From assembly GCF_000003815.2 (NCBI RefSeq), contig NC_049992.1:4662481-4726480 (forward strand): a stretch of DNA of 64,000 bases, read 5' to 3'. Numbering within the stretch: the stretch's first letter is position 1; each line of letters begins with the position of its first letter. A program made the translations under genes and the position numbers. This document shows, one piece after another, positions 4,595 through 44,400 of this stretch. Source of the stretch: Branchiostoma floridae. Its lineage: Eukaryota; Chordata; Leptocardii; Amphioxiformes; Branchiostomatidae. Below the pieces are notes generated by a model. That model saw nothing but the letters and a program-made list of their open reading frames with translations. It was not told the DNA's origin and ran no database searches.

Positions 4595-7500
4595 GTTAGT
4601 TTCGTTGTATTTGAACCGTGAAAAACAACATGAAACAAGGCGATGTCACCAGATACGGTAACTTTTCATGTGTAGATTTGTGCAATTGGAATGCAGCCGA
4701 AGTTGTTTCCTGCGTCCTGTTATGTGGGGCTGTCCTATTCGCTGTGATCAACAAGGTCCGGTTGTTCTTCTTCGACCACACAGGGGAAGGAACCTGCATG
4801 TCTACATGAGTGGCTCATGTTCGCATGCAACAGAGAGTATCTATGTATTCAGCCTCAGTCAGAGCCACGTTTGCTCTATAGGGTCTCATAAGATGATATA
4901 TGATCGCACATGGTTACGCCCACTTTTGTATTGTGTACCAGATCTTATGTAATAGTCTACCATGCTAGCCGCAGTAGGTCTCTAGTCGCCCCGGCTAAGG
5001 TCAGCCCCTTTCTCACCGCTCCCAAATTACTTTCTGAAAAGTTCACAGCTGTAACAAGGCAATCAGAAATAGATTGAGTGGGAAAAGGCAACCTCGAGCC
5101 TACCATACACACTTACATCAATCAGAAATGGCAGACTTAAAGTTAAACCCCTTCTGGCAGAAGTATAAACAGAAACTGCACTGAGTCTACTTTCAGAAAA
5201 GTCCACTACACTACAGAAACTGTTGCTACTCAAGCAACTGGATAGATTCTGGAAATAATCTGACGTTTCATGTAGCGTCAACTACCCTTCTTCAGTGACT
5301 GAGTAATTGTAGCTTGTTACCTGGATGTCAAAGCCTTCATCCGGATTCCATGTAAATAAAAGAGATAAGCAGTTATTCAATATGCTTGTTTTTAATCTCA
5401 CAGCAGAAGTTGTGAGGCGAAATTGTCACATTTACCTAGTAGTTGCCAGCTTATGTTACAAACTGCCTCCCTGACATTCAGTTTGTAACATACATGGCAG
5501 TTAGGAAAAAGGACTGATTTGGCCTCCCAACATCTGCTTTGAGATTAGCCCTTTTCAAGTCCAGTGCATACAGTAATTGCATTTAAGTTTATGGGGATAT
5601 ACTTTTGCGTTAGCGGGAAAATGGAGTATTCGCGGTGGTTTTGATTTTGCGGTAGCACTAGCACCATAGACTGTAGTCACACACTGTAATGTAAAAATGT
5701 TCGCGATGGTTTTAACTTGGTTAAGTGGCCACCATGAAAATCATTAACATAAAACTACCGAGAACATTTTTGCATTTACAGTTTTGTTCCTCCTCATGAT
5801 TCTAGCAAGTGACAACTGCTCTAGTCTGTGTAACGCAAACTCCGCTGTCCAGGGCTGTAACTGGCCACTTCCTGCAGGGGGCCGGCGGATGTTGGGCGGG
5901 CTGCTATAAGCGAGATTTAGGCACGATCTACACACAGTTTTTCCCGATATCGGCGAGCCTACAACCTCTCGCCGATAGCTTTTTTTCATCGTCCAGATGG
6001 AACTACTATATCGCCATTACAATATCGGGAAAATTTCTCCCGAAAGGTCCGGACCATTCGTACGAATACTACGATACCTTTCCTATAGCTTAGCAGGGGT
6101 TCCCGACAGGTTCGCGCGCGTGTAGATGCTTCCCGACTTCTGGAAGGCTCATTAGCATATAACGCCATGTGGAAAATCGCGCTATATGTTTATGACTGCA
6201 AGAGCCATGGGTGTCCGGCCCCCTACGTTCTAGATCCCTCCTGACATCTCCACAGATATCGGTAAAAACTGCGTGTAGATTGGGCCTTAATCAGGCTAAC
6301 AACTGCTCCTCTAGAAATTTGCTGTACCAGGTTCAGTAGCTGGGTTAAACAACTGTTGTTTTTCCTGTCCATCAGCAGGGTTCTCCGACAGAGGTACCCT
6401 TGAACCCTGAGCCTAGACAGCAGATGGTATGTATCATCCATATGGTATCAGCAATTTCAGAATTCAGAAATTCTAATCCTCAAAAAGATATTTATATCCT
6501 ACCATCGGCAAGAAGGCTGTGATTTTGGTGCCATTTGTGGTCAGGCATTTTTGTTTGTGAGCAGAATAACTCAAGAAGCTGTAAATGGATTTTCATGATG
6601 ATAAAAAAATTACTACCAGTAACTGCTAGCCTCCTCAATTTTTTTTCCAACTGCAACTTGGGCACACTTCTCACAAGTTTTGTTTCACCTCCATTGTTCA
6701 GACAAAAATGTCTACTGAAACCATTCCTCCAGACACAGATGAAAGTCTCCACTGCAAAATAAAAGGGCATAGACTAATGAAATGCCAGAATGCCCTGGGA
6801 ACTCTGCCAATGTAGGAAGTACAGTTCTCATTGCTTAGACTCATGTCAGCATGACATATATTAACCTTTATAATCCTCTCCCTGTTTCAGATTGAGACTG
6901 CAGTAAAATTTCTACAGAATCCCAGAGTCAGACAGAGTGCATTCACTCAGAGGAGAGCCTTCTTACAGAAGAAAGGTTGGTATCTGCTTGTTAGTCTGTC
7001 ACCGTGTATAACGCAAACTCTGCTATCTGGGCTGTAACTGGCCCCTCTCTTTAACGGGCAGCTATATGCACAGTTCAATCAAGCTTGTTAACACAAATAA
7101 ACTTCATATATGATGAGTAACTTGGAAACTTGGAACCTCTTGAATGAACAGTAAGGGACCTGTATGTTTTATGCTATATGATTATTGTTATGTTTACGTT
7201 TATGTTCATTATGTTGATTTGGGCTCCCTTGGAAATCAGTTTTATCAAAACTGTAGGGACTACCCTGAAAGATTAATAAATAAATAAATAAAAAGTACTT
7301 ATTTCACCTGAATTAAAGTCTATTATTTCTTTAGTCCTGTACATGTATGTGTATCTGTTTATGTCTATGTGTGTTTGAATATGTGTGTGTATGTGTGTGT
7401 GTGTGTTTCTGAAGTGGATGCCAAATCTGATTCTGTTTTTTGGACAGGTAGTGTTGATTATTTTGGAGTTGCAGTGCCCCCTGTGGAACATTTTGAAAAG

Positions 7501-10500
7501 TGCAGCTCAGAAAAACCCATGTTTCAGTCGGACTGGTAGAGAGTTAGGTAGGGCATTGGCAGCAGTATAACACATCTATTGTCAATGATAGTCAATTCTA
7601 ATGTAAATCTTTTATCTTTCCAGGGTTAACAAATGAAGAAATCCAGTTGGCAATAGAGAAGTCAGGAACAGCAGCAGATGAAACAAACCCTCCACCCCCA
7701 CCTCCTACACAAGTGGTACAGTCCACAGCCCCAGTAGCTCTTCAACCACCTGTTAGTAAGTACTGTATTGTAAATTGTGAAATATTCACTGTGTTTTTTT
7801 CTTCAATAGAAGGATACCTCCCAGTTGAACAGTAGAAATATTTCTTTGTCTACAAAGATTCCTCAAGGTGATACCAATTTTTAATATGTTGGTTTTCCAA
7901 CTTTAAAAAAACAACAACATTATGATAAAAATTTATTTAAAGAAATAATCCTGAGGACCAAATTTTAATTCTTTGAGAAGTCTTATTGAAGATTTCTTCT
8001 TGGTCTCTGCTTTTATGATGACTGCTTTCTATAATCTCAAGGCAGATGTACTGGTGGCACGAGGAGTGTTCTGAACNNNNNNNNNNNNNNNNNNNNNNNN
8101 NNNNNNNNNNNNNNNNNNNNNNNNNNNNNNNNNNNNNNNNNNNNNNNNNNNNNNNNNNNNNNNNNNNNNNNNNNNNATTGGCGTGGCTCACTAAGTTGTT
8201 TAGAACTTAGAAACTCTTTCCAATATATTAATTCACTATAGTTCATTCTAAATGTTCCAAAGTGTAACAACTAACAGGTTGTCCCTGTTCTCTTTACAGT
8301 TGTCCCAGTTTCTCCATGGTCCAAATGGCGGGACATGGGAGCAGTTATCGTGTTGGTGGGAGGGGCGCTGTATGGCCTGTACAGACTCTTCCAGGTTTGT
8401 ATATAGTGTTGGTGGGAGGGGCGCTGTATGGCCTGTACAGACTCTTCCAGGTTTGTATATAGTGTTAGTGGGAGGGGCGCTGTATGGCCTGTACAGACTC
8501 TTCCAGGTTTGTATATAGTGTTGGTGGGAGGGGCGCTGTATGGCCTGTACAGACTCTTCCAGGTTTGTATATAGTGTTGGTGGGAGGGACGCTGTATGGC
8601 CTGTACAGACTCTTCCAGGTTTGTCTGTCTGTTAAACTTTGTTTCTTTAGTAGCATGAAAGTTCATCTGTGTTATCTGTATGGTATCTGTATGGCCTGTA
8701 CCAGGATTGTCTGTCTGTTTCTTTGGGAGCATTAAAGTTCATTTGTGTTGGTTGGTACATGTGCCTGCAGTTATGAAAAACTTTTTTTCCAATAAATAGA
8801 AAGAAGTTAGGCTGACCAAAATGTGGTGTAGTCCTCTTGAATGTCTCCTGTAAGATATCTGAAGAACTTTTCAGACGTGATATTATCTATTGATTAAGTA
8901 AGTGATATTATTTGTATATCTATTCATTTTGATGAAGTGTTAACATTATTTTTGATGATTGCAGGCATATTTGTTACCCCTGTGGAAGAGCAGAGATGAG
9001 GAGAGACAGAGACTGGAGAGGATAGAGGCTGCTGTGACTGAGCTCACTGCTTCTGTCAACAAAACAGGTCAGTAAAGCAGCCAGATTTAACACACCTATA
9101 TCCAGAAGAGTATAGTTGAACTGGTGTGTTTAGCTATATCTATGCTGTAGCATAAACTCATTGCAATACTTAGGCCAATGAAAAAGTACCATGCTTCAAC
9201 CAAGGTCGAACAGAAATAAGAAAAAGGCTTTAACTACCCAGTGTAATCATTTACAATGATTTGTGTTTCAATGTCCATTCATTAAATGGTGCAAAGTTTT
9301 GTTGTCGTAAAGGCTGGAGCTAAAAAAAAATGTGGTTGCTAAAAATCAAGTCCAAAGAAGAGGATATATACCTGATAAAACATGAAATGTAAAAGACCAG
9401 AGCATTAGTGAATATACTGGTAGCGTGCATGAATTTTCATTTTTTTTACCTGCCATTGACATATGCATTCTTTTGGTAATGATACCTGGTGTATTTTGCA
9501 GCCAGTAATAAAAATGCAAGGCTGTCTTGTGATGGATACAGGCTATTGGAATATTACTGGACACATAAATACAGCACAAAAATATCAAAAAGTATCAAAA
9601 ATACAAGATAGCAAACATGATTCTTCATGACCAGGGCTCAAAATACCACCTGTATATGCAGGTTAGTGCAGGTAAATTTGGACCTGTGCAGGTATTTCTG
9701 GTGTCTACCTGCACCTAACCTGCACTGGTCCATGTACTGTGTTTTATACATAAATGTCCTATGATGTACACACGCAAAAATATAGATGTATGTGGATTGT
9801 TTTAAGCTGCATTGAATGTTACCACCTAGAAAGTGGATAAGGAAAAAAATAGCAATGGTTCCTGAGAATTTCAAGTGTGATCCATTGCATGCTTCCTGGA
9901 TTCAGAGTGGTGCAGGTAAAATTTCTCTGGTGCAGGTAATTTTCAATGTTACCTGCCCCAGTGCAGGTATGCAGAAAAATGTATTTCGAGCCCTGATGAC
10001 TGATGTAATGTATTACTGCATCCTTGCTACTACAGTTGGAGAGTTACAACAGACCCTGACTAAGCAGGGGGACAGGGTACAGGAGATCTCCATGGAACTA
10101 GCTGCTGGGAAGGTAAGGAAATAAACACGTGTCATGGATACAAATCAAGCTTGGTGTGGCACTGATTCATTGATTGATTTGCAATACCGGTATGTAGAAC
10201 AGATAGAAACAAATCATCATACAGAAGAAGGGATCATGCAGAGTAGGGGTGCGCAGAAGCCCTAGTAGCTTTTTGTCAGCCTTCCTCATAATTATACAGT
10301 ATAAAAGGTTTAAATTTTTATCAAACAAAAAATGAATTAAGATTATAACACAAAGTATCTAGATGAGACATGAATTGTATTACACACTATTAATACTGAA
10401 TACAGTACTGTACATAATTTGCAAATAACACTGCAGGGATACATGTACATGTATTAGGTCATAGCAAACTAACAAATTACATTTTGTCCTGACTCTATGT

Positions 10501-11879
10501 TTCTAGAAGTACCATTTCAAATCTTGTTATCTGCTATTATTCAAGGATTCTCATGCAAAAATGCAACCTTCAGTCAGAATTGGTAGAATTGAAAAAGTAA
10601 ATTTAAAGTATGATATCTTAGTGTTTGAAAGCATAACCTTCTACACTGTCCCTAAAGGTTAGCAAACACCTTTCTTGGATACTTTGGATTCAATATAATG
10701 TCCTTATTACACTTCCTCTATAAGGTTTGATACTGCTTGAGCTTCACAAGTATAATGCCCACTTTGGCTAAGTACTGTGACTGAAAAGTCCCCTGTGCCC
10801 CATAGGCCATAGCACGAGTGTTTCAGAGCCAACCTGCTGCCACTACTTTGTTGTTTTTTGATGTTCTAGCTATGCTTACCCTAAATCTGTGATCGGAAAG
10901 CTCCTAAGAAAGTTTTTATTTCCCCAGTCCACAGCACGAGTGTTTGAGAGCCAGAGTGTGAGTGAGCTGAAGGCTGAGATCACCTCCCTCAAGGGTCTAC
11001 TCCTCAGTAGGTAGGTCAACCTGCCATCACTACTTTGTTGTGCTTTGATTTTAGTAAGAAAGTAATGAGATATGCTTACCCTTAGCTAGAAAACTCTCTG
11101 TAGATCTTACTTTGACTAATATACCCTTTACATTACTATTATAATATTGAAATCATGAATATGTGTGTACCTCTTTTTATTTTTCATTGAAGATGCATAG
11201 TGTTCTATTACTACAAGACACCAGAGTACACTGCTTTGTCAGACCACCAGTTAGACATTGTACAGGGTATTATTTGACAAATGTTGACTTGCCAGCAAAA
11301 TAACAGACACACAATTCAACAACAACCAAAATGATTGTGAATCTGAAAGTTTACCTCTTCCAGAGCACAATGAATGTTGTCTAGGCAAGTTGCCTGTAAT
11401 GATGATGTTGGAAGTTTCCTTAAACACAAAGTTTATGTCTGGTTTTTATTCATTTTCTTCCTCTCAGACACCAGTTCCCTCCGACCCCTTCTCCCACTCC
11501 CATCATCCCCTCCTGGCAGATGGAGACCGTCGACTCTGCGTCGTCGACCAGCGGCAAGGCCGCCACGACTAGCAGCGAAGTCTCCCCGGCCGAACCCGCG
11601 CCTCCCGGCAAAGACGCAGACTCAAACATTGAGTCAGAATCTCTTGATGTTACTCAGAATGGGTTGTCAGCGGAAAAAAATGTGTCCACGTCCGAGAGTA
11701 GCGAAGACACAAGCTCGAGTATTGTTCACGTCAGCAACCCACTGGACGAGCTGTCTAGTGGGGAGGAGATGGAGGCCAAATGTCAGATGGAGGGTAAAGG
11801 TCAAGAGGAAGAGTCCACTGCAGAGGTTAGCCAGGGGGAGGAGGACAATCAGGAAAACACTGAAATGAAGCAGGTTTAG
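4556..11879 (+). CDS. PEX14: PEX14, peroxisomal membrane docking protein (9 coding exons)
   Basis: PEX14 is the peroxisomal membrane component that docks the cargo receptor PEX5 (and binds PEX13/PEX19) during matrix protein import. The nine exons join in frame: 4556-4594, 6379-6426, 6891-6975, 7624-7755, 8300-8394, 8965-9067, 10036-10112, 10928-11010 and 11468-11879. They give 1074 nt and 357 residues (human about 377). In order the protein has a short N-terminus, the PEX5/PEX19-binding helical domain (about 30-75, AVKFLQNPRVRQS and RRAFLQKKGLT), a proline-rich linker (about 78-101), a glycine-containing membrane segment (about 114-132), a coiled coil (about 134-220) ending in SLKGLLLSRHQFPPTPSPTP, and an acidic Ser/Glu-rich tail. 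It is head-to-head with the DFFA exon and convergent with CASZ1. Confidence 0.96.
5569..5783. mobile_element. MITE of the TACTGTAAATGCA family (PEX14 intron 1)
   Basis: The ends are inverted (ACAGTAATTGCATTTAAGTT on the left, TTTTTGCATTTACAGT on the right). Internal blocks such as GTAGCGGGAAAATGGAGT and CACTGTAATG are shared with copies at 43128, 47772 and 48302. TA at the outer edges would fit a Tc1/mariner-type MITE; the family assignment is an inference. Confidence 0.75.
5826..6300. mobile_element. foldback element in PEX14 intron 1
   Basis: The arms at about 5911-5953 and 6254-6290 are imperfect inverted copies (ATCTACACACAGTTTTTCCC against the complement of AAAAACTGCGTGTAGAT). Imperfect direct copies of ACAACTGCTC..CTAG flank the unit (about 5812 and 6299), which may be a target duplication. 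Its left end carries the GTGTAACGCAAACTC motif also seen near 2099 and 7005. Boundaries are approximate. Confidence 0.5.
6379..6426 (+). CDS. PEX14: PEX14 exon 2
   Basis: The exon is 48 nt, phase 0-0, between acceptor CAGCAG and donor GTATGT. It encodes GSPTEVPLNPEPRQQM, the variable linker before the helical domain; the vertebrate protein has a similar GSENVLPREP segment here. An inner GAG/GTACCC could give a 15-nt version, but GTATGT is the better donor. Confidence 0.8.
6891..6975 (+). CDS. PEX14: PEX14 exon 3, PEX5/PEX19-binding domain first half
   Basis: The exon is 85 nt (phase 0 to 1) and encodes IETAVKFLQNPRVRQS followed by AFTQRRAFLQKK. This is the highly conserved three-helix docking domain that binds WxxxF/Y motifs of PEX5. 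The acceptor is TTTCAG and the donor GTTGGT. Confidence 0.95.
7190..7294 (+). mobile_element. LINE/SINE 3' tail fragment
   Basis: The phrase GGGCTCCCTTGGAAATCAGT is followed by (TAAA)n at 7273-7293. The same layout occurs at 46790-46892 (GTCCCCTTGGAAATCATCTG then TAAATAAATAAA). This looks like the 3' end of one retroelement family. Confidence 0.55.
7381..7407. repeat. GT microsatellite
   Basis: A short (GT)n run interrupted by AT lies in PEX14 intron 3. Confidence 0.8.
7624..7755 (+). CDS. PEX14: PEX14 exon 4, end of docking domain and Pro-rich linker
   Basis: The exon is 132 nt (phase 1 to 1). It starts by completing a Gly codon and reads GLTNEEIQLAIEKSGTAADE, then a six-proline run and TQVVQS. 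GLTxEEI and SGTAADE are near-identical to the vertebrate protein. The donor is GTAAGT. Confidence 0.95.
8077..8176. other. assembly gap (100 N) in PEX14 intron 4
   Basis: The gap is exactly 100 N, so its size is probably nominal. It lies between exons 4 and 5; the flanking exons join in frame, so no coding exon need be missing. Confidence 0.98.
8300..8394 (+). CDS. PEX14: PEX14 exon 5, membrane segment
   Basis: The exon is 95 nt (phase 1 to 0), with acceptor TTTACAG and donor GTTTGT. It encodes SPWSKWRDMGAVIVLVGG followed by ALYGLYRLFQ, the hydrophobic glycine-containing segment by which PEX14 sits in the peroxisomal membrane. Its 3' 45 bp plus the donor are the first unit of a five-copy tandem array; reading past the first donor meets TAG at 8404-8406. 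Confidence 0.95.
8350..8624. repeat. five tandem 56-bp copies of the PEX14 exon 5 3' end and donor
   Basis: Units start at 8350, 8406, 8462, 8518 and 8574, with an exact 56-bp period and very few differences (for example A at 8467). Each unit contains 45 bp of exon 5 coding sequence plus GTTTGTATATA of the intron, so five identical splice donors lie in a row. Only the first keeps the frame, because TAG follows twelve bases after it. The reverse-strand open frames over this array are by-products of the repeat. Confidence 0.97.
8965..9067 (+). CDS. PEX14: PEX14 exon 6, coiled-coil start
   Basis: The exon is 103 nt (phase 0 to 1), with acceptor TTGCAG and donor GTCAGT. It reads AYLLPLWKSRDEERQRLERI then EAAVTELTASVNKT, matching the YLLPL...REDRKQLERMEA segment of vertebrate PEX14 at the start of the coiled coil. 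Confidence 0.95.
9632..9995. mobile_element. non-autonomous DNA transposon, CAGGGCTC...GAGCCCTG type
   Basis: The inverted ends are CAGGGCTCAAAATACC and GTATTTCGAGCCCTG. A 5-bp direct repeat ATGAC flanks the element immediately (9627-9631 and 9996-10000). The interior is rich in GTGCAGGT palindromes. A related element with its own 5-bp flank is at 13101-13424, and a truncated reverse-orientation copy is at 53276. It is probably hAT-like. Confidence 0.8.
10036..10112 (+). CDS. PEX14: PEX14 exon 7, coiled coil
   Basis: The exon is 77 nt (phase 1 to 0), with acceptor CTACAG and donor GTAAGG. It encodes GELQQTLTKQGDRVQEISME then LAAGK, the continuing heptad region involved in oligomerisation. 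Confidence 0.93.
10928..11010 (+). CDS. PEX14: PEX14 exon 8, conserved coiled-coil end
   Basis: The exon is 83 nt (phase 0 to 2), with acceptor CCCCAG and donor GTAGGT. It encodes STARVFESQSVSELKAEITS then LKGLLLS. The ESQ...ELK.EI.SLKGLLL pattern is a hallmark of animal PEX14. Confidence 0.95.
11468..11879 (+). CDS. PEX14: PEX14 exon 9, acidic C-terminal tail and stop
   Basis: The exon is 412 nt. It completes an Arg codon, reads HQFPPTPSPTPIIPSWQ (conserved), then about 115 residues rich in Ser, Glu and Thr, and ends TAG at 11877-11879. Acidic low-complexity tails are usual for PEX14. Confidence 0.93.
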
Positions 11880-14584: not shown

Positions 14585-14700
14585 GGGGACCATGATATGA
14601 GGAATAGCACGACGTGAGGTTTCTCTTCACACGAGGGTCAACACGAAACGTGCCATTGCTCGCGTTCCGCTATCTTTGCACGCTCGCCCCAGGTAAAGGC
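14585..14700. mobile_element. element end related to the palindrome at 22.6-22.8 kb
   Basis: GAGGAATAGCACGACGTGAG, then AACACGAAACGTGCCATTGC and CGCTATCTTTGCACG, match the reverse complement of 22689-22800. It leads straight into the ~100-bp minisatellite, suggesting that the array is internal to or was captured by this element. Confidence 0.6.
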
Positions 14701-15520
14701 CCATTACGTGCGCTTCTTCAATTTTAGCGATGTTCGCACGTAGCCGTGGCCGGGCATTCACGGCTATATTTTCTCGCCCCGGATGAAGACAATCCAGCCC
14801 CATTACGTGCGTTTCTTCAATTTTAGTCGTGTTTGCACGGAGTTCTGGCCGGGGTAACACGGCTAATATGGCTTTATTTCCGCCCCGGCAGACTCGGCAC
14901 TCAATGCGGACCCATTACGTGCGGTTTCTTTTTTTTTTTTTTCAATTTTAGCGGTGTCTGCATGTAGCCATGCCAGGCAACACGGCTACTAGTATATTTT
15001 CCCCGACTCGGCACTCAATCCAGACCCCTTACGTGCGCTTCTTCAATTTTAGCGGTGTCTGCACGGAGCCAGGCCCAGCAACACGGTTATTTTCTCGCCC
15101 GCCCCGCCAGACTCGGCTCTCAAACCAGACCCATTACGTGCGCTTCTTCAATTTTAGCGGTGTTTGCACGGAGGCAGGCCCGGCAACACGGCTATTTTCC
15201 CGCCCGCCCCGCCAGACTCGGCTCTCAAACCAGACCCATTACGTGCGCTTCTTCAATTTTAGCGGTGTTTGCACGGAGGCAGGCCCGGCAACACGGCTTT
15301 ATTTTCCCGCCCCGCCAGACTCGGCTCTCAAACCAGACCCATTACGTGCGCTTCTTCAATTTTAGCGGTGTTTGCACGGAGGCAGGCCCGGCAACACGGC
15401 TATTTTCCCGCCCCGCCAGACTCGGCTCTCAAACCAGACCCATTACGTGCGCTTCTTCAATTTTAGCGGTGTTTGCACGGAGGCAGGCCCGGCAACACGG
15501 CTTTATTTTTCCCTCTCTGA
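14695..15520. repeat. minisatellite, ~100-115 bp unit, about 8 copies
   Basis: The core CATTACGTGCGCTTCTTCAA recurs (with small changes) at about 14702, 14800, 14912, 15027, 15129, 15237, 15338 and 15440. It is followed each time by TTTTAGCGGTGTTTGCACGG and a GC-rich GCCCGGCAACACGGCT / CCCGCCCCGCCAGACTCGGC segment. The first three units are more diverged than the last five, so homogenisation is polar. Open frames over this array in several frames are repeat artefacts. Confidence 0.95.
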
Positions 15521-25022: not shown

Positions 25023-28000
25023 CTGGAACAAACAGGTATTGTTGTATTATTTGGAGCACAACTGATTTACCTTATTTAAAACTGATGTATGTCTATCACT
25101 GATTTGGAGTTCATCTTTTTGCTTTCTGTTAGTAAATTCAATGTCATAATTTGCTCTACAGTACAAGCCAGTTAATTGCACAACGGATAACCGTACACTT
25201 CTGTTCATTGCATGGAATCCCCAAATCCCATGGTGCTGGAATGCAGCTGGATAACTTTGTTGCACCACCCGGATAATTGCACGGAATACACTGGCAATGT
25301 GTGCAATTAAACGGCTTCTACTGTATCACTAACGAAGATCGAAATAAACCAAACCGAACCTGGGCCTCTCTCTGCTCTGCCTTGTCATGTTTCTTGAGAT
25401 GCCATGGCAGTTTGGAGGTGCCGACCGTTGTGAAGTGGCAGCCAGGCTTGTTGCAGTGGTAGTGTCCCCGCAGTCGGTACTCACACTGTTGGTCGGGACA
25501 TAGCCGCTTGATGCCGTAGTAGCAGAAGAAATCCTTTGCATTGTGGTATTTATTGAAGAACTGGAGACCCTCGGGACTGGGGGTAAGGCTGTGCTCACTG
25601 TAAAGGAAAAATTAGGTTGGTTAGGTTCAGTTTTCACCTGTTTTTGTCTATGGCTTCAATTGGTCATGATCATCAGTCAAAGTCAAAGTCAAATCAGTTA
25701 AACAAGTTCACACTTATCCTACAGCATTGTCTGGCTAAACAGTCTTATTCATGGGGACAACACATAAAAATCAAACCTCAAGCTGTGCTATGCTTTGAGT
25801 ATATTTATAGCAAATCGATGACATGTTTGTATGCTTACATCTTTGAGATGCATACAAAGATGCTTGAATACACCAGTACAAATCAAGAAGCATACAGTGA
25901 TTAAAAGCCATACCGAATGTTTGTCCTCTTGCCAAACAATTGGTGTGGCCTAGGCTTCCAAAGTATCAGTGCCACATTTCTTAGTACAACTGTTACAATA
26001 CAGCTAGGCATTCCCTACCTGAGGTTGGTGGGGCTGTTGGAGTTGTCGTGCATGTTGGGGTGGTTAGCAGCAGCGTGTGCCTGCACATACGCTAGCAGGC
26101 ATCCGTCCTTTGTACAGTGATAGTGGCTGGACTTCATGGAGTAGTAACACTCGGGGTAGCCACAGTTTTCTGTAAGGGAGAGACAAACACAACAATGTCA
26201 TTACTCAACAACTACAGCAGCACCCGTCCTTCGTACAGTGATAGTGGCTGGACTTCATGGAGTAGTAACACTCAGGGTAGCCACAGTTTTCTGTAAGGGA
26301 GAGACAAACACAACAATGTTGTTACTCAACAACTACAGCAGGCACCCGTCCTTCGTACAGTGGTAGTGGCTGGACTTCATGGAGTAGTAACACTCGGGGT
26401 AGCCACAGTTTTCTGTATGGGAGAGACATATGTAATCCAAAATTCTTTATTCCTACAACAAAAACCTATGGCTAGTAGCATAGCATCAGGTTGCAGGATT
26501 AACTGGTAGAACAATATACACACAGAATGTATGATAAACTTTTCAATACAATGTATAATGCTTTTCTGCCTGGCATTTCCAGGAATTCTAAGTCTCCTTG
26601 ACTTCAAATTGCTTGAAACAAAACTCACACTCTAGTTTACATCAGAGAGGTACAGACTGAGACATATACTGATTTTAAATTTGACTTCTTTTTGTTATGT
26701 TTCCTGTGTTATGTCGCGTTAAGGCTAAACTTTTGGTTCACTCGTTTGGCAGTATTATTTTATGTTATCTAAGTTAAATCTGACTTTGCACAATCTTTAT
26801 GTTTATGTTACCTAAGTAATATGGTTTCATAGAACGTTATGTATGTTTATGTTATTGAAGTTCATTTGGTTCTGTTGAACTTAATGTATGATTTACGTTT
26901 GGGGTTCTCCCCCCAGGGGGCTTTGAAAAACACTGTCAGGCGACATGCTTTACCCTGGTTAAATAAAGAATTAAAAAAAAAAAAAAAAATACCCTGTAGG
27001 GTGAACCTCCTCATCCCAGGTATCCCATCGACCTGGCTGCCGGACGGTAAGGAGGACAGACTCCCTGTGACGGGTTTGATCTCTGACGGAGGGGTGATCA
27101 TCATCTTGTGCTGCTCGTAATGCTGGTTGTTGGGCGTCAACATCTGCACAGCATGGGTGCAGCCAGGCTGAAGGGGAGGGGAGAGGTAAGTGATGAGAAA
27201 TGTGTGTCATTGAAGGGCTAGACATCCGGGTAATAAGATACACAATAGATAGGTGACTCAAGAAAATGGATAGATTTTGCAAGAGGTCAGACATTTTAGA
27301 TGAAATTTTGCTTGTCTTTTGTCGATGGCTGAAATGAGAATCTGATGAGGTACATGTATATGTTTTCACTGTGTAAAAAACACCATCTTTTTTTAGATTC
27401 TGTGACATTTTTAGCAAAATATCAGCAAAGGGTCAAGATGAAAACAAGGCTTGGTTATCAATGTGCTTGAGGTGTGGCTCTTCTAAAACACTGGACCTCT
27501 GATTTACCTGATATCCAGAGGACATCCCTAGCAGAAGCTACATGTGGGAACTACTTTTCACCCCATTCAGTGTCTTTCCAAAGGCACAACACAACATTGG
27601 GGTCTTTTTTTAAGATTTCAAATCAGGAAAGAGTTGCAATTCCAAATGGAAAAACATTGATTCCAAATGGAACAACATTGAGACCTGCAAGGGGTTTTGA
27701 ACCCAAGACATTCTCTATCAGTCAGTCAGCAACCCTAGGCACAAGATCACGATTTGGAGAAATTAACTTAAAAGAAACCAGAGAAGCAGACTGACCCATG
27801 TGCAGTGGTAGTGGGACTCCTTTAGCCTCAGCTGGCAGTTGGGGTCGTACTTCTGACAGTCCTGCGATTGGCTGAAGCGCTCGAACCCGTTCTGTATCAT
27901 GCCTTCACTCAGACGGTGGTACCTGAAATCAGAGGTACAGATTACTAATGTAAATTGTTGCTGCAGGGGATAATTTCTCAAGCGTAACAAGAATGTTAGC

Positions 28001-31000
28001 CTCTACCAGGCTCCACACATGTCGCAGGATAGTAGAAATAGACAAATAACACACCACAGGAGTTAGCCAGCCAAAAAGTGTTGTCACAAACTTTAACTGT
28101 TGTTTTTGGCAGGCTAACTCTTCTGGTGTGTTATCTGTCTATCTGGCTGATATCTACCATTTTTCCAGGGACAATTGTGGAGTCTTGTACTGGTAGAGAC
28201 TACAAAAATATGACTGTATCGTGTGTGCAAAACACAAAAATACAATTCGATGAAATCGTCAAAAAAGAGCAAAGCAACAGGCACATGGTAATGTCATGAC
28301 TCAATGATTTATACAAAATATTCATTGTCAGGGAAACTGATATCATAGTAAATAAAGCTAACACCAGACAGTATAAAAAGTCGAACATATTCCTGCCTGC
28401 CTGTATGCCTTCAATAAAGATACCGAACTCACTTGGCATGTTTGTTGACTCCCTCCTTAGACCTAAAGATGGCCCCACACCCCTCCACCACACAGTGGTA
28501 ATGGTCCTTATACAGGAACTCACACCGAGGGTCGCAGGGGTCATTGGCAGTGTACCTGCAACAATGTCATCAAACAGAGAAATGATTGTAAATCACAGTA
28601 GAGTGGTTGACAGGAGACCTGGCACATCCCCTTCTTGTATTCAGCTAAAAGAAAGGGTATGTATGACTATGAGGGGTATAACCCCAACAGTGCTGTATAC
28701 CATACTAATGAATGTATGTCTCTAATACTACTTGTTTAATGTATATGATAATCCCTATAATAGACCTATACACAATTCAGGGAGGCTCATGCTACTCACT
28801 GTGTATGTAAGTTTGCAGTTTTTGAAATAAACAAAACAATATAAATGGACTTGAAGTCAACAGTAAATTACCAAACAGCTATAAACAATACAGGGCCAAA
28901 GGTCATGAATAAATGCTGTAAATACTTTCCAAATGCAATAAAATACAGGCATATTCATGAGGGCAGGTTGATAAACACAGCTTCAGCAAGGCCACAAAAT
29001 GTCATGAATAAATGCTGTAAATTTATACATCCAATATTTAATGCAATAAAATGCAAGCTTATTCCTATGGGCAAGGTGCTAAATGCTCTCCAACCTGCAG
29101 TACTGATCTCAACAGACAGGTGGCACTTCCAGAACAGCTAGTTAGCATATCACAAGACTGACATGTTGACATACTGTAGACATATCAAAACACAACTGTT
29201 ATAGTGTTACTGCAGTACTCAAATCAACCAGTAGGAGGCACTAAATGTTCAGCAAAACTTCTTAGTACATTTAGCAAGAGCCTACCTCTTCAGAAATTTC
29301 TCCCAAGTGTCCGTGCTCCTTCCACTGTCTCCTTCCTCCACACCTGGCAGGTTCAAGTTCAAGGAGCTTCCCAAGTCCATCTCTGCCGTGGCTCGGGGGT
29401 TAGCTAGGGTGGCGAAGTTTGCCGTCAGGTTGAGAGAATCGCTTAAGTCTACCCCGTCCATCGACATTAGCTGCGAGCTTGTGTTTTCCTGTTTGATCTT
29501 CAAGTTCAAGGACCCGCCCGAGCTTTCGCATTCGTCCTCCTCGCTCTCTTTCTCTTTCTTGACGTTGACCTGCCCCAAGGTTTCTTCGCTCGGGACGGGG
29601 AACTGAGGTAAGGAGTTGGAAGAGGTGGGGGACGCAGCAGCCAGCTTGCTGCTAGGACTGAGGGCGGCGGCTGCCATCCTTGCGAGGGATGCGGAGATGA
29701 CCGGACCGGACTTTGCTTCTTGCACGTCCGTGGCTTCGGGCATCTTGGCGAGTTTAGCAGCCTGGAGAGCAGCAGGGGAGGGTGCGGTGGGGTTGGTAGC
29801 AGCAGTGGTTATAAGAGTGGTGGGGGCAGGTACATGTACAGGTATGGGCGCCGCCTGAGGGACTTGTATCTGGATGGGCAGTGTTTGTTGCTGCAGCTGC
29901 TGTTGTTGTTGTTGTAGCAGCTGTAACTGTTGCTGTTGCTGGATGAGCTGATTCAGCTTCATCCGGTGCACCCCCGGGGAGTACTTGTTGTCCCGTAGGT
30001 TGCGCAGCTCCCGCCGTTCGTGCTTGCGCCGGTGAGAGTGCATCTGCCCCGTCGAGGTGAAAGTGAACCCGCAGCCTGGCCGGATGCAGTGGAAGTGGTT
30101 GGACGCCTTGGAGTAGACGCAGCCGTCGAACCGACACTCCTCGTACTTGTAGAACTTCTTGAACCCCTCCTTGGTGTACATGTCGTCCTTTAATGACAAT
30201 GACAATGAAGTTTATTGCATATTCATGCTGGCCTGGGTACCATCCGGATAGTTCACTTCTGCTATCCGTCTGGAGCCCTGCACATTCAAACCATTGGGTG
30301 CTAACGTCAGTTAATGAGAGAAGTAAGGAATGGGTTCTAGAGCATTCTTTCGATGACAACAGGCCTCTCACAAGCAGATGGAGGGCTTGTCCGGTGTTGG
30401 AATGCCTGTTTAAATGAGCACTTGAACCCATTCCATAATTCGCTCATGTGTAGGGACGAAATCAGCGCCTGCGTCCAAAATTTGGACAACTCCAGACGTT
30501 AAGATTTGTTTTATCTACATGATTGTGTAGCATTAACGAATGTATTACGTAGATCTTTGTACAGTGAACAAAGTGTACTTTGTTTTCTACATGCATGTAA
30601 GTTTTCTACATGCATGGGATTCTTATCACAAAATCTTATCACCTTGATGTGGTAGGCCTTGTGCTTCTCAATGTCACACTTGTTCTTAAAGGAGAAGTTG
30701 CAGTTTGGCCGACGGCAGTGAAAGTGCGTTGTCTTCTGTCCGTAGAACGAGCAGGTTATGATACCGCAGTCTTCCGTGGCTCGGAAGCGCTGGAACCCTT
30801 CGCTGATGAACGCAGCGTTCTTCTTGTGAAAGTTCTCGTGGGTCATGACATCAGACGTACTGGTGTACACTTTATTGCATCCAACCTGGAGAAAACGACA
30901 AAAATCTAGTTGTTGTCAGCTATTCATGACCAAATATTGTCTACCTTGACAATCCTGACTCTCAAATCATAGGTTTGTTTCTCCAGAAATGTCAATATAG

Positions 31001-34000
31001 AGAAAAACACCTTGTTGCATCCAACCTAAACAATTACAAAAGAAACTGATTCATTTTCAGTTATCAATGACCAAATGATTTCTTGTGTACCTGGTCAATT
31101 GTGACTAAACATTCATAGATTTAGTTATGTTGCAATACAATCAATATAAAGAAAAAAACAACACCTTGTTGATTGCAACCTGAAGGAAACAACAAAAATT
31201 ATTTTTGTTTTTGTCAGTAATTCATGGTTGAATTATTTTTGGTCTACTTGGACAATCATGGCTCTCAAATCATACGTTTGTTTCTCAAAAAATGTCAGAA
31301 TAGAGAAAATAAAGTTTAACATTTAACAATTCAAAAACTGCAACAAAATTGGGGGCTCAATTTTGAATGGATTTTCATGAAAGAAACTACAGAACATTAC
31401 AAAACGATGAATAATAAATCATTCAAATTGAATACAGACAGAAAAACAACATTCTATTCTGACATTATTAAGACAATCATGGACTGCAAATAATCACTAA
31501 ATTAGTACACACTACATGAAATATTCATTGAAACCATTTGGTTAAAAACACTCAGATCATGGTAGAATTTTTTTTTTCATCTGTATTCAAAGTCTCAGCA
31601 AATTCAGAACTACAAATGACAGTATGACGGTAACTAAAAAAACAGCTTGATACAATTTTGTTGCGGACATAACTGTTACAGGACAATATATACAGCCCTG
31701 GTCTTCTTTATATGATGCATTTGTCATATTTGCTTGGCAGGAGAGATTATAAAATACCGGGCAATATTCTCACAGCTCTAGTTGTCTGCAACATTTCTGT
31801 TGCACGTGATAGAAAAGGTTATAAATTTAAAATCAAGCACATAGAATTCCGCCCCTACCCCTGCATTAATCATTAAATGATGCATGGTGTCACCCATAAA
31901 TTCTACAGCGCTTCATTAAATACTTACCTGGGAAATGACAAAGACATAAAATCTTATCAACTAGGAATTCAATTTGTTCACAAGACCACCGCATTCATCA
32001 TTTCACTCACACAAGCAGTGGTAAAATTTCATACCATCAAACATTAATTTTTTTCTCTTTTTTTTTTTAGACTTCTATGAAGATAGGTAAAGCATATTGA
32101 TAGGAGTTTCCATGGTTTATTCTGTGTTTATTCAACAAGGGCTGTAGGCTTAATGCTGGTCCCCCTACGCACGTCTGTCATCCTTATTCAGCTGCTACGC
32201 CTGCAAGCATAAAAGAGCTCAGTAAAAGCAACTACTTTGGTCTAATTTGCTTTCAAATTGGAACCCACTTTCGGAGATGATCACAAATGAGAACATTTAT
32301 GCACGGTATATCAAATTCCTTTTGACAACTCATGCAAGGCATGACATGCCAGGGTAATTCGGTGTCCAAGGGACTGAGGTATTCAAGGGCACGGCATTCT
32401 AGGGCCTCATTTAGTATGTTAATATAATAATCTATGGAACATCACAATGCAGGTATAGACTAGGGTGTCTTTGGATGTTCGTACCCCATTTTCGGTAGCC
32501 TTAAATTTCAAAACTGGTGACTGAAACATTCACAGTTGCTTTGTTTTGAAATTCGTTTCATGAAAAATGGACATCTTGGAAACTGTACGCAATTTGCCAG
32601 CACTGTGTAATGGTGAATTTGAATGGCAGTATAAAATATAAGGGCCCCACAAAATCCATAATGGAATTATTACAAAATATCTAAATTGCGCGGAGGGCCC
32701 GGAATGAATGCCAATCACCTCTGCTGCAGGTTTTTTTCCAGGCACACTGTTTCTACAAACAGTCCTTTACAAACATGTTGGAACCACTTTTAGTTTAACG
32801 CTTAGCAAAAAATTATCTTTAATATTCTTGAAGGTTTGACTAAAGTCAAGCCTTCACAAAGTCAGGTTGTGTTTTTGTGTAAGTCTTCACATCTTTCTCA
32901 AAGACTTCATCTGTCTTTGACAACTGTATTGATGTTGTACTCGCTCTACACAGTATTTGGAAGATGTCATTGTCAATTACACTTGTTTGACAGACACATT
33001 GACACACATTTCTTTCATGTGTTTAGCCGTATATATATATGTTGTATTTTTCATTTGGTTGTTTGGAGAAAAAATTTACTCAGTCTGTTTAATCATGTAC
33101 ACCATTCTTACACAATGGTGTGTGAGTGTGTGTGTGTTTCTTTTGGAATTCTGACTAGTACTCCTTCACTAATTTTCTGGATAAAATGATCTGAAGTTTG
33201 GAAGGCGGGTGGGGGTTACATGTAGTTTGGTTTGAACCAACACCCCCAAGGCCTTTCTTCTTCACTTCTTTTTAAACACATCTTACAATGATGTCATCTA
33301 GTCATTTCATGTCTTATTTGCTTCCTTATAGGAAAGTATCTGCTGGCATTTTGGTTCATTTTCTGTACTTTGAAGGCAAAAATATAGATCAGATACTAGC
33401 GGGATTTTGCTCAATTGCTCAAGAGCCTCAGGCAAACTTCAAAATTCTTTAGAACTGAAAAAAACCTAGCACCCTGTGTATGGATTTATCCCTACTTCTA
33501 TGGATTTCTGTCATCCCTAAGTAAGAAGGTAGTCAATAGTACGACCTCTCTGACCAATATTCCGCAACCCATCTAACCTACAGACCATGTCCACCTGCGA
33601 AAAATCCATCCCAATTTTCCCAATTTCGGACAAACGGTCATTTTTGGGGCCATTACTGCAGTTTTGAGGCGTCCGCTGGGAAAAGCTGTGAGGATGATAT
33701 TCCAGCCAAAAGGCAAAAGTCAATTAAGAGGGGGGCTAGGGGCTAATGGAACGTGAAATAAGTTCACTGTAGCCAAATCTGCTGCATGTTGCCAATAAAT
33801 TAAGTAAATGTATAGGGTCAGCACTGCACTAGTAGGAACCAGGGTGGCCAAACTGGGATCAATATAGAAACAGGGGGACAGCAGACTTCCAATTTCTGAG
33901 CACGACCTGCCTCGCTGGGCCTTAGTCCTTCCGCGGGGAGGATCGATAATCTTTAAGGTAATTTATGGCCACCTGAATGGGCAGGTATGTTACTTCACTG

Positions 34001-38400: not shown

Positions 38401-41400
38401 TAGCTGCTGCTTCGAGTGAAGTCGGGCCAGCAAGGTGTTAAAAACATTGTTTTCTACTGAACTAAAGCGCATTAAAAGCATCCATCTAGATGCCACTCTT
38501 TCAGACAGATTAAAACAGGCGTCACGGGTCCGATGGCGTGATATCGCCTGTTGTTGACTCCACATTCCTGTCCGTCTGAAAGGCACTTACACGAATGAAC
38601 AGAGCAGATTCAGTTACAGTTACAGTTATAATTGCCCACCTGAACCACCTTAAAATTTTCCTGTAATTTCCAACACAAAAATTGGATTTAGCCCGAATTT
38701 TCGATCGCCCCACTCAAGCGTTTGTCAATGTAGAGTACGAGACTCGATAAGCAATGGAACACAATTTGCAGAAAGTCTATGGCAGTCAACAAAAAACAGT
38801 CCAAAATGTTAATCATAATTCAACTTTGTGTTAGAAAACACTACTTTCCACATCTTTGATTGACTTCTATAATCACAGATGAAAAAAAAACTTCTACAGC
38901 GACAGCTTCTTTCCTCACACTGCCATGCTATGGAACTGTCTCAATCATTCAATGACAACTGTTTCCGTCCTGTATATAATTTGCAAAAACAGTGCTCATT
39001 GCTGTCTCCTAGCAAAATAACTTCCATCTATCCATCCTTCAACTTAGTTCACATTCTAGGAGTGGTTTGGGCAGAAAGGCAACAAATTTGCAGAAATGCA
39101 GAATGTTTTCCTTTCTGGCCTTGTGTCGAGCTATTCACACACAACACTATACCATTAGGATCGCCCCAAAGTAGTGTATGCAAGTAAAAAAAAAAGAATT
39201 GGGGCTATGAATGACGGTATCTGAGTGGCCAGACGTGCTAGCCAGGCCTGGTAGCCTGGCCTAATGCACAGCCCTGGTAGCCTGGCCTAATGCACAGCCC
39301 AACCTTTTCTGTAAACCCTTTCTGCTAGGAGGAAGAAAGAAAAAGAACAGTGTCACCAGGAAAAAGAATATGTCTTCCTGAAGGAGAAATATTATCCTAG
39401 TATGTTCTTTTTTTCTTAAAAAAAACAAACAAAGAAATTTCAAGCCAACAACCCATCTGCATACGGTGGTAGTGTGTGTTTCTAGTTGAAACCACTATAC
39501 ATCGATTTGATATCCATAGATACCTTATCTTTCAGTAGCAGATATAGGTTACCCTGCGGATAAAGGTGAACCACCAGTCCCAAACACAGGTGACTATAGA
39601 TGTGCAAAAGATAGGTGTGACGGGTCGTTCAGCGTAATATAACCAGCTGCTGCTGCGCCGCATGCCTGCGAAGCTGGTGTGTTATGCCGAAGGGCGGTTA
39701 TACCGGCTATATAGACACAGATACAGAAGCTGGTGTGTTATGCCGAAGGGTGGTTATACCGGCTATAAAAACACAGATACAGATAACTTTCAAGCTAACT
39801 CTTCACCTCACCTGCATACAGTGGTAGTGCGTGTGCTTCAGGTTGAGGGAGCAGCCTGAGTAGTACACACTGCAGTCGTCCAGCGGGCTGAAGCGCATGA
39901 AGCCGTGCTGCAGGGAGTTGTCCTTCTTCTTGTGCATGTTGTAGTGGCGAATCACGTCCTGCTTGTTGGTGAACCGCTAAGCAGGAAGGAAAAGGACAAG
40001 GTTAAGGTCACTTATTTTCTTGGCTCTCAGTTCAAGACATTTTCAAGCAAGACAATGATGAACACTGAGGGAGAAAAACTTTAATCTGACTTTGAGGAGG
40101 AAGTTTTCGGAATGAACACAGACATATAAAGTTTTTCTGAGGTTTCTATCTGTTTTCCTCACGTATTCTTGATACAAATTACTGTCTAAAAATGTAGAAG
40201 AACCATTACAGGGTGTAACCTTAAGAAAAAGGATGCCTTCTTGGGAAGTTATCATTTTAGCTAGTAACCCCATGACTGTTTTATCTCTCTCTCTTTTGGG
40301 GTTTAAGGCAAATAAATCTTAGAAGCCATCAGATCACAGATTGGTACAGTCAAACTCGGGACAAGTAAAATGTGGTCTATGTGGATAGGTGGTCATTATA
40401 GGCAGGGTTCAGTGTCGGGTGTCAATGGGAAAAAGTATCAAAGGGTCACATCAGCCAGGTGCTCCATATGTAGACGTGGTGACTTCAGATTCAGATTCAG
40501 ATTCAGCTTTATTCCTGGATGACTTGGCATGTATGTACACATGAAATACGTCATCAGTCACAGAAGCAACTTAACATTAATACATTTACAACATTTAAAA
40601 TTAGACAGCAATCGGATTAAGAAAATATACATGACAGAATCAACATTCTTTACCGCTCATCTAGCACTTTCGTACAGCAATCGTACAGAGCGGGGTGCAA
40701 ATGACATCTCATGTCGCTTCGTTTTACTTCTAGATGCCCTGTATCGGGCTTCCTGACGAAGACTGTAGGAACTGTCCTGAGGTGAAGTAAAGAACTCCCT
40801 CAGCGGAGAGCTACTGTCCCGCAGTATGTCTTGTAGAGTCCTCAGCGTCGCTGCGTCCCGTCTGTCTGATAGTGAGGGCAGAGAGTCAGATGGGATACCA
40901 ATGATTCTAAGACAGCGCCTCTGCATGGCTTCTAGCTTGTCTGACAGGTGTTTCGGCAGTCCTCCCCACACCGGACTGGCATACTCCAGTAAGGGGCGTA
41001 GGAATGTTAGGTAAATCTGGAGCAAGACATCAGTAGGGAGACCAGCCTTCTTTGCTGCTGCAAGGTAATACACACGTGGACGGGACTTCGTCAACATGAA
41101 ATGAACGTGTTCATCCCAGGTAAGGTTGGCAGTGATGTGTACTCCAAGTAGTTTGAAAGACGTAGTCCTCTGAATCACATGTCCGGATATTGTCGGATGA
41201 GGAGGGACAGGAATGTTTACCTCCTTCCTTGCGCTGATAACCATGTCCATTGTCTTTTTCCCGTTTACCTTGAGAGAGTAGTCCTCCCCCCATTCAACAA
41301 TGGAGTCAAGTGCCTTCTGCGTTTGACCAGGAAGTGACGCCATTAGCATTTCAGAGGTTGTCAGATCGTCCGCATATTTGACAGGAACAATGGGCCTTGG

Positions 41401-44400
41401 CAACCTTGCATCCAAGGTATTTATACAGATGACGAAAAGTGTTGGTGATAGAATACCACCCTGTGGAACACCCGCGAGGACGTCGTGGGACTTAGATACA
41501 TGGACTTGGAACAAGTTTCACTGTATATCATTGGCTAGGTGGTCTTTATGTATGGGTGGTCACTTGTACATTCCTTCATTCCGGCATCGTACAGGTTTGA
41601 CTGTTTGTCATACCTGTGACGCAAAAATGTTCTATACGGGTGTTCCGGACCGGGTGATAACTTTCCGTATCAGGACAGACGGGCTCTAAGTTGTATCACA
41701 GGGGTTCCATCAAAAATTCGAATACCGGATTTGGACGTTGGAACATTACTGTTGTAACACTTTTTGTTCGAGGGTCTCAGCCCTCCCACGATCCGACCCG
41801 CGGTACCTTGGGTGATACGGAATACACTGTGTTGTAATTCTATATATATCAGTGGCCAGGTAGTCCTTGTGTAGAGGTGGAGACTTGTGTAGGTTCAACT
41901 GTATAATGTCATCATGATACTATCATTAGCTGGCTGATCCTCTTATAACTAATCCACCTCATGCTGGGCACAGCAAAGAGATTATACCCCCTGCCCCGAG
42001 GGAGCACATGTACCTGGTAATTACAGGCCACAAAGCGGTTACACAAGCAACTGGATTTGATTTTGGAAAGGTCAGATGTTTCAGACACCATCCGATGTCT
42101 TTGGTCACTGACAACGAGAAAGATCTTGTTGGAGAGTAATTATATCTTAGTTATGAATTAATTTGCAAAAACAGGTTTATTATGACTATGAATCAATATG
42201 CAAAAAGGGGAGGAAAACAATTTCTAGCAGTCCAAAGGAAACAAAGATAAGACAATGTATGTTGGTGTTGTTGTTTCAATCACAGGAGCTATAACGTTTT
42301 GTCACTGACGAAATACTTCAGATGGTGTCTGAAACGTCTGACCGTTTCCAAAATCATATCCAGTTGCTTGAGTAACTGCTTTTTGGTGACTATGATCTTA
42401 TTTCCTGGATGTCTTAAACCGTACCTGGTAATTACACTCTGTGTCCAGGCAGTGGAAGTGCTCCTTGTACTGGTACACACAGTGGAGGTGCCCGCAGTGC
42501 ACGTTTGCTGAGAACCTGGGACGGAGACAAGAAACACACAAATCATGTATCATTCTGTTTCTGACACTGTTGCAGGGTTGGACAAGTTAGAGTCGATTCC
42601 ACATTACCAAGAGGGTCTTTCTTGCCTTTTGTTCCAACATTTTGAAAATCTTTATAACATTCTAAATGTCATAAGTAACAGTTTAGAACTATTTATAACA
42701 TCTGTGTGATGTTCAAAATATTTTCTATAGTGTTCATACATGTTAGAAACATTTCCAACATCAAATCCATTATATCTGTTAGTTTCTAAACTGTTCCAAC
42801 ATAGATTCATCTTTTGTGATCATATGTTCGAACAGTGAAACAAAATGATGAAACTGGGTCAGTGGGCTGGGAAGAGGGCAATTCACACATCCCTGCCAAG
42901 TACAGGAAATTGTGTATGTACACATGTACATTTTCTGTACTTTCTTTTCTGTGACTTACTTTGCGATATACTTCTGAAATATGTTCATCTTGAATTTTCT
43001 AGTTAGGTGCACCCAGCATTACCTGCTTCTGTGACTTACTTTGCGATATACTTCTGAAATATATTCATCTTGAATTTTTTGGTTAGGAGCACCCATGCAT
43101 CTATTCTCAAAATTTCGAGCCCTCTATTACTGTAAATGCATTTAAGTTCATGGGGATTTAATTTTGTGGTAGCGGGAAAATGGAGTTTTCATGCACTGTG
43201 GATTTAAGTTCACGGTAGTGCCATAGAAGTGTAGTCAAACACTATAATGGAAAAATGCTTGCAGTGGTTTTAAGTTTGCAGTGAAGTGGCCACATCAAAA
43301 ACCGCGAATATAAACCACGGTGAACATTTCTGCATTAACCGTTACTGTACCTGATCCTGTGACTTACTTTGCGATATACTTCTGAAATATGTTCATCTCG
43401 TTGTTCCTCAGCATCTCCTCCACATCAGGCTTGCCGTTCTCCGAGAAGCAAGCCTTGATGTAGTCCGTGCTGGCGTTTGCCGTGCGGCCCAGCTCACCGT
43501 CAAACAGGTCGCTGTCCACGCTGTTGGTGTTTGATTGTAAGTCTGAGGTAGTCATGGCGCTAGTCACTGTTTGCGGGCCGGCGTTTAAGCCCTGAAAGTT
43601 CCGAATGTCGTATTTCAGCGGGCGGCCGCCCTTTTTCATCGGTTCGTTGAGGTTGGCGAGGATGGGAGAAATGTCCTGAGGCTGGAGATATTTGATTCGT
43701 TCGGGATCGAATTTTGACGAGCGGCGGGGGGATATCGTGCCGGCCGTTATGGTGTCGTTTGGGTCGGCGAAATTCTCCCCCGACTTGAGCTTCTGGATAA
43801 AAAAGTCGTATTTGGACCCCCGAGCGTCTATGTTTGCTCCCGATAACCCCTGCACGAGGGCAAGAGCCTCGTTTTGGATCCCGTTTCCCTGTCGCTCTTT
43901 GATCTGCATCTCAAGAATTTTGCCCGAAGAAAACGTTTGTAAGGGCAGCGCTTTGAGGTCGTGATCGCTGGAGTCGTACCCGAACATCCCGATCAGTTCG
44001 TTCATCGTCGTCTCCGCGTAATCTCGCAATGTGGAGGCATCGCCCTGACTTACTTGAGGTTCTGTTGGAGGTGTTTGCTCTGGTTTGTTGCTTTCTACAG
44101 TTGCCTTGTGATTAGTGTTACTAGCTAGAGGGTTGGCAAGTTGTGGTTCAGAGCGAGAGTTGGTGCTTGCCCTCTTGTTTATATTGTCTTTTTCAGGATC
44201 ATAGTCCTCATCGTCTTGGTCTTCATTGTCGCTCTGATTGAAAGGGTTTTCGAACTCGGTGGTGTCATCGATTTCGTCTTCACTGTCGCTACATCCTGTG
44301 GGCTGTACGATTACGACGTCACCGTCGATGCATTCCTCTGAGAGTTCCTCCTCCATCTGAAAGTGCGTGATTTTGTTCGGCGTCCTTTTTCGTCTAGACG

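Follow-up and report, generated by a model that had tools for sequence, protein, structure and literature searches.

A tandem array of splice donors in an amphioxus PEX14 gene, a probable 5′-splice-site mirage

A gene of the amphioxus Branchiostoma floridae, identified from its predicted protein as PEX14, carries five tandem copies of a 56-bp unit at one of its exon-intron borders. The array is very probably a 5′-splice-site mirage, a young minisatellite which has expanded to five copies and is nearly neutral for the protein. Mirages are minisatellite-like tandem duplications of exon-intron borders, described for Adh3 and the globins of amphioxus (PMC3087553). To judge from its structure, the PEX14 array fits this class and is thus of a kind already known, in a host gene that is new among the published mirages. 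The window referred to below is the whole stretch of DNA analysed, 64 kb in length.

The array and its host gene

The seven modelled exons of PEX14 share a single open frame, which comprises 328 residues and ends at 11879. The model is partial, as the 5′-most exon or exons were not found in the gene modelling of the window. The partial protein matches the Pfam family Pex14_N (PF04695, E 3e-13) and, in the PDB, the PEX14 chains 4bxu_A (E 3.7e-15) and 2w84_A, at about E 4e-15. Both the Pfam and the PDB matches lie within its first 49 residues, upstream of the array. The gene and the array are laid out as follows.

6891..11879, plus strand: partial PEX14 gene model (open frame, seven exons, AG/GT borders)
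6891-6975, 7624-7755, 8300-8394 and 8965-9067, plus strand: exons 1 to 4 of the partial model
10036-10112, 10928-11010 and 11468-11879, plus strand: exons 5 to 7 of the partial model
8300..8394, plus strand: exon with the likely membrane segment VPVSPWSKWRDMGAVIVLVGGALYGLYRLFQ, true donor after 8394 (gene model)
8346..8624, plus strand: tandem array, five copies of 56 bp (Tandem Repeats Finder and direct reading)

The array-bearing exon is 95 nt in length. The sequence-only reading had named it exon 5 of PEX14; the gene is upheld by the Pfam and PDB matches, but the exon number is not established, this being the third exon of the partial model. Its claim that the array takes in the exon end coding for the membrane segment was borne out, with the segment here called likely. 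The acceptor at 8300 scores 10.8 and ranks 8 of 346 AG sites in the PEX14 gene, by rough scores from splice-site matrices each built on 12 other hand-modelled borders of the window. Two long open reading frames of the minus strand, 8248-8631 and 8271-8738, were considered as genes and rejected; they are taken to be products of the open repeat frame.

The five copies and their 56-bp period, as first described, were confirmed both by direct reading and by Tandem Repeats Finder, which reported period 56, 5.0 copies in the one gapped assembly that this number describes, 98% matches, 0% indels and a score of 537. Each unit runs from GTG...CTCTTCCAG, the 45 nt of the exon end, through GTTTGT to a 5-nt junction, ATATA. 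It therefore spans the exon-intron border, with 45 nt of exon and 11 nt of intron and junction. Copy 1 begins with TATC, the true exon, and copies 2-5 begin with TATA. On the 3′ side of copy 5 stands the true intron, GTTTGTC and GTTTGTCTGTCTG. The ATATA junction is absent from both flanks of the array and would mark the first duplication. In a self-comparison of the window, the array gave a 167-nt self-match with an E value of 1e-76, which excludes chance.

The period is exact and the copies are not all identical. When the five units were read directly, the ten copy pairs differed at 0-2 of 50 aligned bases, and private substitutions were seen, one G-to-A in copy 3 and another in copy 5. Such low divergence suggests recent expansion or homogenisation, and is as expected of the recent expansion that had been proposed from the near-identity of the copies. 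Immediately downstream lies a further copy, which the sequence-only reading had passed over.

8676..8749, plus strand: older decayed copy of exon end and intron start, gapped, donor lost, CAGGATTGT (local alignment)

This stretch aligns to 8592-8673, which takes in the last part of copy 5 and the adjoining intron, with a score of 59; none of 2000 single-base shuffles scored above 28. The PEX14 border has therefore probably been duplicated at least twice, as far as the alignment can tell.

At 8077-8176 and 62850-62949 the window has stretches of 100 N, a length commonly given to gaps whose true size is not known. The first ends 169 bases upstream of the array, and the assembly is thus gapped. 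Misassembly could in principle account for the array, or for its number of copies. There is precedent for this in the sources as far as available, since a globin mirage was reported to be aberrantly assembled in the draft genome (PMC3087553) and PGBD5 showed 2 and 3 repeats in one genome version and 7 and 6 in another (PMC3902484). According to the same PGBD5 excerpts, however, the re-examined reads spoke strongly against assembly error (PMC3902484). The private substitutions in copies 3 and 5, the 5-nt junction found in neither flank and the older decayed copy adjoining the array also argue against an artefact, which is considered very improbable.

Five equal donors and their splicing outcomes

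The last exonic bases of the five copies are 8394, 8450, 8506, 8562 and 8618, the positions first proposed, and each is followed by GTTTGT (CAG/GTTTGT, the slash marking the splice border here and below). The features below come from a check of the open reading frame, which for the TAG was combined with direct inspection of the sequence.

8395..8400, plus strand: donor 1 (CAG/GTTTGT), the sole donor that leaves an intact frame in one step
8451..8456, plus strand: donor 2
8507..8512, plus strand: donor 3
8563..8568, plus strand: donor 4
8619..8624, plus strand: donor 5
8404..8406, plus strand: in-frame TAG reached through donors 2-5 without further splicing

The description of the donors as equal holds, for the donor 9-mer CAGGTTTGT is identical in 5/5 copies; it ranks 15 of 358 GT sites. 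The match to the surroundings of donor 1 extends over 45 bases upstream and 16 downstream at donor 2, 39 and 72 at donor 3, 45 and 26 at donor 4, and 29 and 6 at donor 5. Local sequence therefore barely distinguishes donors 1-4.

With the donor at 8394, the outermost copy, the frame is open through all seven modelled exons. In one-step splicing, donors 2-5 lead into the TAG, which is codon 108 of the partial frame. The exon ends in CAG and the intron starts with GT, and therefore the remainder between donor 1 and any later donor k (8395 to 8394+56(k-1), k from 2 to 5) begins with GT and ends with AG. Removal of this remainder, of 56, 112, 168 or 224 nt, leaves exactly the normal mRNA for all four values of k. 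It had been claimed that only donor 1 yields intact PEX14 and that the other donors add a TAG and so trigger decay. The first claim is correct for one-step splicing but need not hold if a second splice restores the normal mRNA; as to the second, the TAG is present, but decay is not forced, since the remainder is removable.

This arrangement bears on a rival explanation, in which the donors compete, the downstream ones are often used, the TAG leads to nonsense-mediated decay and the copy number tunes the level of PEX14. The identity of the donors and the premature TAG agree with such a decay switch, and the published text, in the parts available, allows that mirage sites could act as cryptic sites. 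The same parts report mirages without disturbance of regular splicing (PMC3087553, PMC3902484), and a second splice can lead back to the normal mRNA, both of which argue against it. A regulatory switch is thus improbable here and was kept as a rival only, since none of the tests spoke for it against the neutral reading.

The second splice is itself not without difficulty, and this weighs against the neutral mirage. Its acceptor, ttccag/GT, is mediocre (5.06 on the same rough scale, rank 28 of 346 AG sites), with another AG 10 nt upstream, and the segment to be removed for k=2 is only 56 nt. The 100-N gap nearby is a further point against the neutral reading. In addition, the authors of the PGBD5 study were unable to fully reconcile the repeats with a normal protein, according to the available portion of their paper (PMC3902484).

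Other acceptors within the array were also considered. The site tatatag/TG (8407) was rejected, with a score of -4.86 and rank 170 of 346. Six in-frame pieces with introns of at least 50 nt were listed, of which four are stop-free. Another proposal is that donor 1 is joined to tgtacag/AC at 8497 (or 8553), so that a 66-nt in-frame mini-exon repeats the membrane helix TLPGLYIVLVGGALYGLYRLFQ or a one-residue variant of it. Neither 66-nt piece contains a stop or shifts the frame, but an open frame could easily occur by chance, and the acceptor at 8497 is weak (4.33, rank 36 of 346) with a poor pyrimidine tract. Such a mini-exon is exceedingly improbable.

Duplicated splice borders across the window

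The PEX14 donor is not the only duplicated splice border of the window, a point missed by the sequence-only reading together with the mirage class. Twenty-seven borders were modelled, 13 of PEX14 and 14 of a minus-strand zinc-finger gene that is castor-like (CASZ1). Several mirage-like duplications, and PEX14 lying next to this castor-like gene, suggested a lancelet as the host. Self-comparison of the window gave 26 pairs within 1200 bp, which form 13 loci. Four of the 13 cover a border where 1.28 were expected by rotation (P 0.011; this and the following P values are uncorrected for several tests and come from a small sample with borders of our own modelling). Counted by border, the result is weaker, as 4 of 27 fall in a duplication against 1.67 expected (P 0.09). 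When only the two gene spans are considered, 4 of 5 loci cover a border (1.15 expected, P 0.011), the locus off any border being 28898-29083; when the PEX14 array is left out, the count is 3 of 4 (P 0.027).

The test was repeated after correction of the borders, on pairs no more than 600 bp apart. At five cut-offs from loose to strict, 5/6, 4/6, 4/5, 4/5 and 4/4 loci were at borders, with 0.9-1.3 expected and P values of 0.004-0.018, or 0.005-0.043 without the PEX14 array. The duplication list was made blind to borders, and three of the border duplications had already been seen when the test was set up. Detection is also biased by exon conservation, since slower decay of exon copies on their functional side leaves border duplications visible for longer.

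The four duplicated borders are the PEX14 donor, the acceptor at 26169 (three copies), the acceptor at 30885 (decayed copies) and the donor at 43368. A fifth, the PEX14 acceptor at 10928, appears at the loosest cut-off only. Its alignment score of 42 exceeds the best of 2000 shuffles (31), but scores as high were obtained by 62 out of 1486 adjacent stretches taken at random; the 25 top-scoring ones among these 62 lie in or beside known arrays. The sequences concerned, and other elements of the window, are as follows.

26094-26428, minus strand: acceptor mirage whose 121-bp unit, cttacag/AAAACTGTGG with about 75 nt of zinc-finger exon, is present 2.8 times; only the 3′-most copy runs on into the full exon
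30867-31309, minus strand: two acceptor copies in decay, tttag/GTTGGATGCAACAAGGTG and ttcag/GTTGCAATCAACAAGG, which lie upstream of 30885, where the true zinc-finger exon starts
42947-43100 and 43368, minus strand: exon end and donor, ATATCGCAAA/gtaagtcacag, of the castor-like gene's large 5′ exon, with two more copies in the intron that follows, at a depth of about 330 and 410 bp
10804-10900 against 10928-11052: weak decayed upstream copy of a PEX14 exon start (GCACGAGTGTTT.AGAGCCA) and the sequence that follows
14697-15512: large tandem array, its period about 105 bp, which overlaps neither of the modelled genes
40660-41517, minus strand: fragment of a reverse transcriptase, matching Pfam RVT_1 at E 1.5e-13, between castor-like exons; probably a retroelement remnant

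Seven minus-strand pieces were searched against Pfam; the six castor-like pieces gave no family, and the seventh is the reverse transcriptase. A PDB search with a 536-aa minus-strand piece returned no match, so that these searches lend the name castor no support. The tRNA and Rfam scans of the window gave no hits.

A broader idea is that in this genome tandem duplication strikes preferentially at splice borders (4-5 of the 27 modelled here), and that AG/GT arrays correct themselves by a recursive-like second splice whichever donor is used first, drift freely in copy number and may seed introns. This idea is improbable.

Proposed origin and relation to known mirages

Under the preferred reading, that of a neutral mirage, the end of the PEX14 exon and the first bases of the intron would have been duplicated in tandem and then expanded to five copies. 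The first duplication would have been joined with about 5 filler bases, and the later copies may have arisen through slippage or unequal exchange. Copies 2-5 would normally leave with the intron, since by exon definition the strong acceptor that ends at 8299 would be paired with the donor closest to it, giving the 95-nt exon. Should a later donor be used, the extra piece could be removed as a GT...AG intron and the same mRNA restored; alternatively, the transcript would meet the TAG and probably be degraded. The array would thus be nearly neutral for the protein and free to vary in length. We ascribe no regulatory function to it.

This agrees with what the available portions of the literature say of mirages. 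These occur at either splice site and are unstable in length, one haplotype having 6 units and another 3. RT-PCR of Adh3 and the globins suggests that mirages do not interfere with regular splicing (PMC3087553). PGBD5 and TnC are further amphioxus examples, whose repeats were judged real by the authors (PMC3902484). The mirages of Adh3, BflGb6, BflGb9, PGBD5 and TnC share with the PEX14 array short border-spanning tandem units, similar copies and a functional outer copy that is kept, the class including both 5′ and 3′ splice sites. The 56-bp period of PEX14 is within the 10-72 bp quoted for Adh3 and shorter than the globin periods of 150-160 bp. By analogy with the published mirages, which vary, the PEX14 array is likely to be polymorphic in copy number.

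In the sections of the paper at hand, mirages were also proposed by their authors as sources of introns (PMC3087553). A related route to new introns is described by the AGGT duplication model (PMC4974935, PMC3443670). In that model (the Rogers model, with ATP2A1 as an example), two copies of an AG/GT unit supply the GT and the AG and the mRNA is unchanged, as is predicted here for 4/4 remainders. The AGGT of the Rogers model is inside an exon, whereas that of PEX14 is at an existing exon-intron border. Excerpts on fission yeast give a further example, SPOG_01682, with the repeated proto-splice site AGGC (PMC3629103). A literature search for duplicated donors found no paper, nor did one for amphioxus with PEX14, and PEX14 was in no title among the amphioxus matches listed.

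The array offers a natural experiment on the choice of a donor by the spliceosome where several are equal, and likewise on how introns may be gained through tandem duplication. The presence of several duplicated borders in one 64-kb window suggests that mirages may be common in the B. floridae genome rather than curiosities.
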